DNA of 64,000 nt, taken from NCBI RefSeq assembly GCF_006363955.1, contig NZ_CP040948.1, positions 62,001 to 126,000 on the forward strand, written 5' to 3'. A program made the translations under genes and the position numbers. The DNA is from Methylophilus medardicus (GTDB taxonomy: Bacteria; Pseudomonadota; Gammaproteobacteria; Burkholderiales; Methylophilaceae). Below are positions 18,540-49,765 of this stretch, piece after piece. Position 1 is the first letter of the stretch; the number at the start of each line of letters is the position of its first letter. The notes beneath the pieces are model-generated. The model did no database searches. It saw only the letters and a list, made by a program, of their open reading frames with translations, and was not told the DNA's origin.

Positions 18540-18827
18540 CGTGATCTCCAGTATGGATTTCAAATTAAAAGTCTCTACGACATGTGCCGAGCACCTTTGC
18601 TAAGCACATGACTCTTTATCGGCACCCAGCACAATAACTAAATCTGGATAAACCAGCGCTAGAGACCGCAATTCATCGATTCGCCAACCGCACAGTGGCT
18701 AAAAGATCAGTTGCCATGGGTTGCTTATCAATCCAATGGTCGTCTGCACAAAGCGCACTGTGCAAAAACACACGCGCCACTTGTTTGTACTTGCCTTATC
18801 AAGCGTTTTGCCGCACAATCCATGCAT

Positions 18828-18925
18828 TGCTAGGGGTCTGCATAGCCTTCATTTATTTAAGGTTTTGCAGTGAGAAATACCCTTCGAACCTGATGCGGGT
18901 CATACCGCCGTAGGGAATGCAAGCT
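18828..18925 (+). promoter_or_regulatory. TPP riboswitch (THI element) upstream of thiC
   Basis: The conserved thiamine pyrophosphate aptamer core is readable: AGGGGTCTGCA near 18832, GTGAGAAATACCCTTCGAAC around 18870-18889, CCTGATGCGGGTCATACCGC, and the closing CGTAGGGAATGCAAG near 18908. It lies directly ahead of thiC, a standard target, so thiamine pyrophosphate should lower thiC expression. Boundaries are approximate. Confidence 0.95.
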
Positions 18926-18928
18926 ATC

Positions 18929-20842
<1,914 letters not shown>

Positions 20843-33469: not shown

Positions 33470-33665
33470 TCAGGTATTGTCTATAAACAACGCCCGATTG
33501 TCTATGACTGTGTGCGAACCAATATTGTCATCAATATTAGGCGTACTATTAGATAGCGTGAAAGCATGTCGGAAGCCATTATGGGTAGTCAAAATGTTTG
33601 TTACTCCCTTTGCTGTTTCCGCTATTTTCAGATGTGTGTCGGCCCAAACCTACAATGGCTTAAAA

Positions 33666-33683
33666 AAACCAAAGTGGTGGTTT
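33666..33683. promoter_or_regulatory. Candidate enhancer-binding site upstream of the sigma-54 promoter
   Basis: AAACCA (33666-33671) and TGGTTT (33678-33683) are perfect six-base inverted arms around a six-base centre. The site lies about 95 bases before the -24 element at 33765, a usual distance for an activator of sigma-54. It resembles the ACCA/TGGT ends of NtrC sites only loosely. Confidence 0.3.
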
Positions 33684-33762
33684 AAAGCAACCATTTATAA
33701 ATACAAATAAAGATTATGAAAATAAATTTTATAAGTATCAATGGGTTACTGAGGTCGGGGAC

Positions 33763-33779
33763 TTGGCACAATTCATGCA
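33763..33779 (+). promoter_or_regulatory. Sigma-54 (-24/-12) promoter of a small RNA
   Basis: TTGGCACAATTCATGCA matches the sigma-54 consensus: GG at 33765-33766, ten bases, GC at 33777-33778, with the full TTGGCAC -24 block and TGCA at -12. Transcription should begin near 33790. Confidence 0.75.
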
Positions 33780-33789
33780 GTTAAAGAGT

Positions 33790-33935
33790 AGTCATGCGAC
33801 TTGCAGGTTGCATGACCTTGCTGTCTCCAAAATGTATGAATCGAAATGGTGGTTGTACAACCACTGCGTCAAATCCCCGATTATCCTTTCCCGAGGATAT
33901 TGCTTGTCCCAAGCTTTCGAGCTTGGGTTTTTTTT
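33790..33935 (+). ncRNA. Candidate sigma-54-dependent small regulatory RNA
   Basis: About 146 bases from the predicted start to the end of a T8 terminator. Four hairpins can be drawn: 33791-33800 with 33807-33816 (10 bp, loop TTGCAG); 33849-33864 (palindrome GTGGTTGTACAACCAC); 33882-33887 with 33894-33899 (loop TTCCCG); and the terminator 33908-33915 with 33920-33927 (loop TTCG). Single-stranded TCCCC and the TTCCCG loop could pair with Shine-Dalgarno sequences. No credible reading frame with a ribosome site spans it. It resembles in concept the NtrC/sigma-54-controlled RNA NrsZ of Pseudomonas, but no homology is claimed. Confidence 0.6.
33908..33935 (+). terminator. Intrinsic terminator with UUCG tetraloop
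   Basis: CCCAAGCT / AGCTTGGG, an 8-bp stem capped by TTCG and followed by eight T. It points on the plus strand, where no protein gene precedes it for more than 2 kb, which is a main argument for an RNA gene here. Confidence 0.93.
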
Positions 33936-33998
33936 GCCTGCTTACAGCGGAGACGCCTCAGCTCAAGAACCCTTTCAGCGTGCATCCAGCTGGCATTC

Positions 33999-48334: not shown

Positions 48335-48350
48335 TTGGCACGTGCTTTGC
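48335..48350 (+). promoter_or_regulatory. Sigma-54 promoter of the porin-glnK-amtB operon
   Basis: TTGGCACGTGCTTTGC matches the sigma-54 consensus almost perfectly: GG at 48337-48338, ten bases, GC at 48349-48350. Transcription should start near 48362, 63 bases ahead of the porin ATG. A nitrogen-controlled promoter (NtrC) is expected for glnK-amtB. No clear NtrC site was found by eye in the AT-rich upstream stretch. Confidence 0.85.
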
Positions 48351-48424
48351 TTTGTGGACACTGTTGTTTCATACTCGTTTACAACAAATTCAATTCAAAG
48401 ATTCCACAGAGAGAGGACTCATAA

Positions 48425-49411: not shown

Positions 49412-49765
<354 letters not shown>

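Follow-up and report, generated by a model that had tools for sequence, protein, structure and literature searches.

An intergenic region of Methylophilus medardicus probably encodes a trans-acting small RNA (sRNA) that, judging from sequence comparisons across the genus, would be made under, and feed back on, a single sigma-54 activator, the enhancer-binding protein (EBP) encoded at locus L112. The RNA lies in the window analysed here, a stretch of 64,000 nt of contig NZ_CP040948.1 whose positions are used below unless a genome handle is given. The gap that hosts it spans 33470-33998 and is flanked by a NudB-type gene and by ispH; an earlier note on this DNA had seen no credible gene there. 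Both neighbors lie on the minus strand and the element itself on the plus strand. The -24/-12 element reported in that note was verified as TTGGCACAATTCATGCA at 33763-33779 (plus strand) with GG-N10-GC spacing, and the predicted RNA of ~146 nt runs on the same strand from 33790, a start placed ~12 nt past the -12 GC, to 33935. Folding of 33788-33937 reproduced the four-hairpin region with its UUCG-capped terminator and T8 (-44.4 kcal/mol, z -3.27, equalled by 2 of 200 shuffles). On the plus strand, the predicted features are hairpin 1 (33791-33816, GUCAUGCGACUUGCAGGUUGCAUGAC), hairpin 2 (33849-33864, GUGGUUGUACAACCAC), a single-stranded UCCCCG forming the first C/U-rich site (33874-33879), hairpin 3 (33882-33899), whose loop bears the seed CUUUCCCGAG at 33886-33895, and an intrinsic terminator with UUCG loop and U8 (33908-33935), made up of the stem-loop CCCAAGCTTTCGAGCTTGGG at 33908-33927 followed by T8.

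Taken alone, the -24/-12 match is weak evidence, as such matches are not rare in the window: five scored at least 11 where 2.3 were expected from 30 Markov shuffles, and within the gap itself 0.012 are expected by chance. We accept the element as real because it is conserved across the genus. By blastn it is found at E <= 1.2e-10 in 14 of 22 Methylophilus genomes, its own included, and in none of 39 genomes outside the genus (best E there 0.046); a plasmid collection gave no match, and the 10 named contigs containing the core motif are all from Methylophilus or Methylophilaceae. The laboratory strain Methylophilus methylotrophus is among the genus members that carry the element. A covariance model (R1) of the 3′ part of the RNA, built from the 14 blastn-positive genomes, scored 57-95 bits in 15 of the 22 genus genomes, the fifteenth being G017 at 57.3 bits. 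In the remaining seven, four of which are only 80-88% complete, and in 165 further family genomes it reached at most 28.4 bits (search filters may drop weak matches), and on this basis we rejected a wider distribution of the sRNA in other genera. A small coding gene was also rejected, since no open reading frame is conserved among the 15 predicted transcripts and their length differences are not multiples of three.

Conservation of promoter and terminator in related genomes was the check that the earlier note had named, and both are retained. The -24/-12 motif, in the form GGCAY-N7-GC, is kept at a fixed place before the RNA in all 15 carriers, and the terminator is near-invariant in 14 genomes. 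An IHF-like site, TATCAATGGGTTA at 33736-33748 (plus strand), resembles the IHF consensus WATCAANNNNTTR, and its ATCAA-N4-TT core recurs 28-29 bp ahead of the -24 box in every carrier except G017 (14/15). The 3′ module UCCCCGAUUAUCCUUUCCCGAGGAUAUUGCUU is near-invariant in 14 genomes, whereas both the length and the sequence of the 5′ part differ among them. Not all hairpins are conserved: hairpin 3, along with the terminator, is near-invariant in 14 genomes; hairpin 1 is retained in some genomes, a subset of 8 that were aligned, and a single sequence (G000) has two of its pairs altered on both sides; hairpin 2 is found in the M. medardicus genome only. Within hairpin 3, CCUUUCCCGAGGAUAUU is unchanged across 14 genomes and altered in G017, where hairpin 3 and the terminator are also shifted in register. 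In all, the fold, the covariance model and the promoter conservation support the original description of a sigma-54-driven, terminator-ended sRNA with a third-hairpin loop complementary to ribosome sites.

Comparison with Rfam gave no family at cut-off for the element, and membership in a known family was rejected. Its best match is anti-hemB (RF02837; 23.7 bits, E 0.0016 on 321 bases, cut-off 49.5), which has a similar two-hairpin 3′ end but differs in the loop and the 5′ hairpin. The only Rfam match in the window is a TPP riboswitch at 18822-18934 (63.2 bits, cut-off 54.3).

Upstream of the promoter, the possible enhancer palindrome described at about 95 bases is present and proved to be a tandem pair, TGGCTTAAAAAAACCA at 33656-33671 and TGGTTTAAAGCAACCA at 33678-33693, the second copy 22 bp from the first and the two together ~86-108 bp upstream of the -24 box. 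These are the only two copies of TGGYT-N6-ARCCA in the window, and the tandem pattern is seen genus-wide: a search for TGGYT-N6-ARCCA-N4-30-TGGYT-N6-ARCCA returned 43 occurrences in 21 of 22 genus genomes, with none for the same pattern read backwards. Both palindromes match at least 9 of 10 defined positions in 14 of the 15 carriers, the second palindrome of G012 matching 7. Hairpin 2 (GTGGTTGTACAACCAC, 33849-33864), within the transcribed region, also resembles the palindrome, with a 4-bp spacer in place of 6 bp.

The 2.6-Mb genome of M. medardicus has exactly two copies of the tandem operator, one at the sRNA and the other ahead of the operon that a TonB-receptor gene forms with L112 (G000:C1:1175360-1179466), in which L112 is the second gene, 23 bp behind the receptor gene. 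In all 19 genomes fetched for this operon the palindrome precedes it, and in each of them the palindrome is followed by a GG-N10-GC motif of the form GGWAY-N5-TTGC, so that the -24 box here is GGWAY and not GGCAY. A single palindrome, followed by a good sigma-54 promoter at a distance of 198 bp, is also found at L074 (G000:C1:847851), where a PEP-CTERM gene lies behind one for a TonB receptor. Relatives have more tandem sites before sigma-54-like promoters, although 3 of the 14 regions inspected lack a convincing promoter; the genes there, read by eye, encode TonB receptors, a CpaC-like secretin, GT2 glycosyltransferases, an ECF sigma factor, an ANTAR regulator, an autotransporter-like protein and a PEP-CTERM-like protein (below family cut-offs). 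None of these 14 regions clearly holds a further sRNA.

Because the tandem operator in this genome is shared only by the sRNA and L112's own operon, we regard L112 as the best candidate activator of the sRNA promoter; that its product binds the palindrome is inferred from the same co-occurrence. The L112 protein has REC, sigma-54 AAA+ and Fis-type HTH domains, and no kinase gene was found among its neighbors. Genes for Hfq and RpoN are both present above model cut-offs. The presence or absence of the EBP does not discriminate, since L112-type proteins with 70-76% identity also occur in genomes without the sRNA. No solved relative was found for the part of the TonB receptor that was searched with its ligand in mind, and no NCBIfam model scored above cut-off on two searched parts of the protein.

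Five EBPs are encoded in the genome, including NtrC (716 bits, cut-off 558.6) and L112, and the same promoter and RNA could in principle answer to one of the other three: L111, an AtoC/ZraR-like EBP with an adjoining kinase, L114, which is PilR-like, or L115, which is AcoR-like and has no receiver domain. Any of these would then also have to control the receptor-EBP operon. We consider this unlikely, as among the five EBP loci fetched only the receptor-EBP operon has the palindrome, which it shows in all 19 genomes, while the four others lack it, and autoregulation by L112 is the simpler arrangement. PrsR was rejected as activator: the best protein scored 411.9 bits, below the TIGR02915 cut-off of 502.6, and motif 1 as published for PrsR and the PEP-CTERM box ends in TTTACA (PMC1569441), unlike TGGYT-N6-ARCCA.

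The receptor-L112 operon is also the predicted target of the RNA. Its leader reads ...(C)UCGGGAAA...AGG... at the ribosome site, complementary to the hairpin 3 loop and one side of the stem; the predicted counterpart of the loop CUUUCCCGAG is CUCGGGAAA, and an example of the candidate pairing region in the mRNA is ...CUCGGGAAAAAGGAUC...AUG. Among the 14 carriers read, CGGGAA is found in the leader in 13, compared with none of five non-carriers (with some doubt about the G011 start codon), and CTCGGGAAA is exact in 6 of 9 genomes. Part of this conservation is expected in any case since the site is a Shine-Dalgarno sequence, and as the split between carriers and non-carriers follows clade lines, the comparison represents few independent events. 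In G017 the loop has turned to UUACCGG and the target motif CGGGAA is missing too.

When each sRNA was paired with its own leader and with 1000 shuffled leaders, 0-1 shuffles were as good in six genomes and 4-7 in three, M. medardicus included; the count rose to 42-95 in G010, G007, G004 and G005 and to 313 in G017, and the shuffle test, which covered all carriers but G014, is thus weak in 5 of 14 genomes. None of 341 other gene starts paired as strongly in eight genomes (z -2.3 to -4.3), a set that includes none of these five. In M. medardicus the receptor leader (-24.9) is barely stronger than the best gene of the window, pilO (-24.7), whose start (60979) complements the sRNA stem perfectly over 12 nt (AAAGGATAATCG), a longer perfect match than that of the receptor leader. 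We rejected pilO as a target, since this match shrinks to 8 nt in G003 and the sequence examined holds no further copy.

It is also conceivable that the sRNA is a broad anti-Shine-Dalgarno RNA that reduces a wide set of transporter and metabolism mRNAs, with the receptor-EBP leader one target among many. Such a role would fit the double hairpin at its 3′ end and the presence of two C/U-rich sites, and RNAs of related architecture have dozens of targets (PMC11722255). Among these, S17/bdhR (ncS27, RF02278, the Betaproteobacteria toxic sRNA family) shares a C/U-rich single strand, a C/U-rich hairpin loop, a short linker and a terminator; its pairing with ribosome sites has been predicted or shown, and the gene of a sigma-54 activator is repressed by S17 (PMC11722255). 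S17 is, however, transcribed from a sigma-A promoter, in place of the sigma-54 promoter here, and its seed is CUCCUCC at the 5′ end of a short form, compared with UUUCCCG (sites UCCCCG and CUUUCCCGAG) in our RNA. RF02278 scored 11.8 bits in the window and 25.3 bits on the G003 copy, below its cut-off of 50; it exceeded that cut-off in 14 of 101 genomes, each belonging to another family of the order, with no Methylophilaceae among the matches listed. A candidate S17/bdhR-like double-hairpin RNA was noted at L066 (G016:C17:253529-253588; 31.6 bits, cut-off 50) in a genus member without a match to the sRNA.

We looked for general target enrichment of the seed complement and did not see it: CGGGAAAG lies before ATGs at 78 sites in five genomes versus 55 for the sequence read backwards, which is not a clear enrichment, and therefore we claim no broad regulon. 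The receptor-EBP leader was moreover the only gene start to recur in several genomes, among 30 of 50 matches listed, and taken together these observations make a broad role very unlikely. In M. medardicus, CGGGAAAG-N1-18-ATG occurs at 11 sites, two of them at apparent real gene starts when read by eye, namely the TonB receptor and a PEP-CTERM gene above the TIGR02595 cut-off. As the motif also spans the start of another PEP-CTERM gene in G005 (above the NF038126 cut-off), seed complements are present at PEP-CTERM gene starts in two genomes, and some PEP-CTERM surface-protein mRNAs are further candidate targets.

The earlier note had placed the RNA in the nitrogen regulon with glnK as target, and its glnK ribosome site CGGGAGA at 49415 is as described. 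The CGGGAG core is the glnK Shine-Dalgarno site, kept in 5 of 6 genomes (CAGGAG in G003), and the glnK leader pairs with the sRNA at up to -22.9 kcal/mol. In all six genomes compared, however, this pairing is weaker than that of the receptor-EBP leader (-12.2 to -22.9 versus -21.3 to -28.6 kcal/mol), and glnK is left unsupported as a target. A strong sigma-54-like promoter, TTGGCACGTGCTTTGCT, lies at 48335-48351 before the porin gene upstream of glnK, and TGGYT-N6-ARCCA is absent from it. NtrC sites have the form GCAC-N3-12-GTGC, and this motif was found upstream of neither the sRNA promoter nor the porin/glnK promoter, so that the motif test is neutral and does not discriminate. An NtrC-activated sRNA acting on glnK and other ribosome sites is highly improbable although NtrC is encoded, as the sRNA shares its tandem operator with the operon of a different EBP and the porin/glnK promoter, whose nearness had suggested the nitrogen link, lacks that operator, leaving the link unsupported.

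The circuit that we consider most probable, with L112 as the candidate activator, would run as follows. L112 would bind the tandem palindromes ahead of the promoter, IHF would bend the DNA, and E-sigma54 would transcribe the ~146-nt RNA. The hairpin 3 loop CUUUCCCGAG, probably with Hfq, would then pair with the receptor-EBP mRNA around its Shine-Dalgarno site and lower translation of the receptor, and of the EBP too if both genes are coupled. Activated L112 would raise both the sRNA and its own operon, and the outcome would be negative feedback on the activator, with some PEP-CTERM surface-protein mRNAs as possible extra targets.

This plan has a counterpart in Vibrio, where sigma-54 and the NtrC-type response regulator LuxO activate the Qrr sRNAs, which repress the LuxO mRNA (PMC2680268, PMC3262071). 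As with Qrr and LuxO, our sRNA is predicted, here from sequence, to be activated by an EBP and to target the mRNA of that EBP. In contrast to the Vibrio system there is a single sRNA gene, a different EBP and a TonB receptor-EBP operon as predicted target, no quorum-sensing parts were seen, and the likeness is in circuit plan and not in sequence; a LuxO model run on the EBPs of M. medardicus scored far below cut-off. In Sinorhizobium, the NfeR1 sRNA pairs with the start of the operon of an NtrC-type regulator, and NtrC represses NfeR1 in a double-negative arrangement (PMC10746234). Our sRNA is likewise complementary to the start of an operon for an NtrC-type regulator, but the EBP in our case is a predicted activator of the RNA and not a repressor. 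Our search of the open-access literature, with subscription papers and preprints outside its scope, found no sRNA work on these bacteria. We hold tentatively, as an idea about as easily doubted as believed, that a Qrr/LuxO-like circuit arose separately in the methylotrophic Methylophilus, with a new operator, a new sRNA family, a TonB receptor tuned together with the activator, and exosortase-type (PEP-CTERM) surface proteins linked through both operator and sRNA.

If the circuit is as proposed, a whole small circuit of activator, operator, sRNA and target would be described in Methylophilus. Natural cases of an EBP restrained by an sRNA that the EBP activates would then number two, with no sequence relation between them, and this would allow one to ask whether sigma-54 control favors such a feedback architecture. 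It would also give entry to an uncharacterised EBP regulon that, as read by eye, seems to concern surface functions, including TonB receptors, PEP-CTERM proteins, a pilus-type secretin and a glycosyltransferase.
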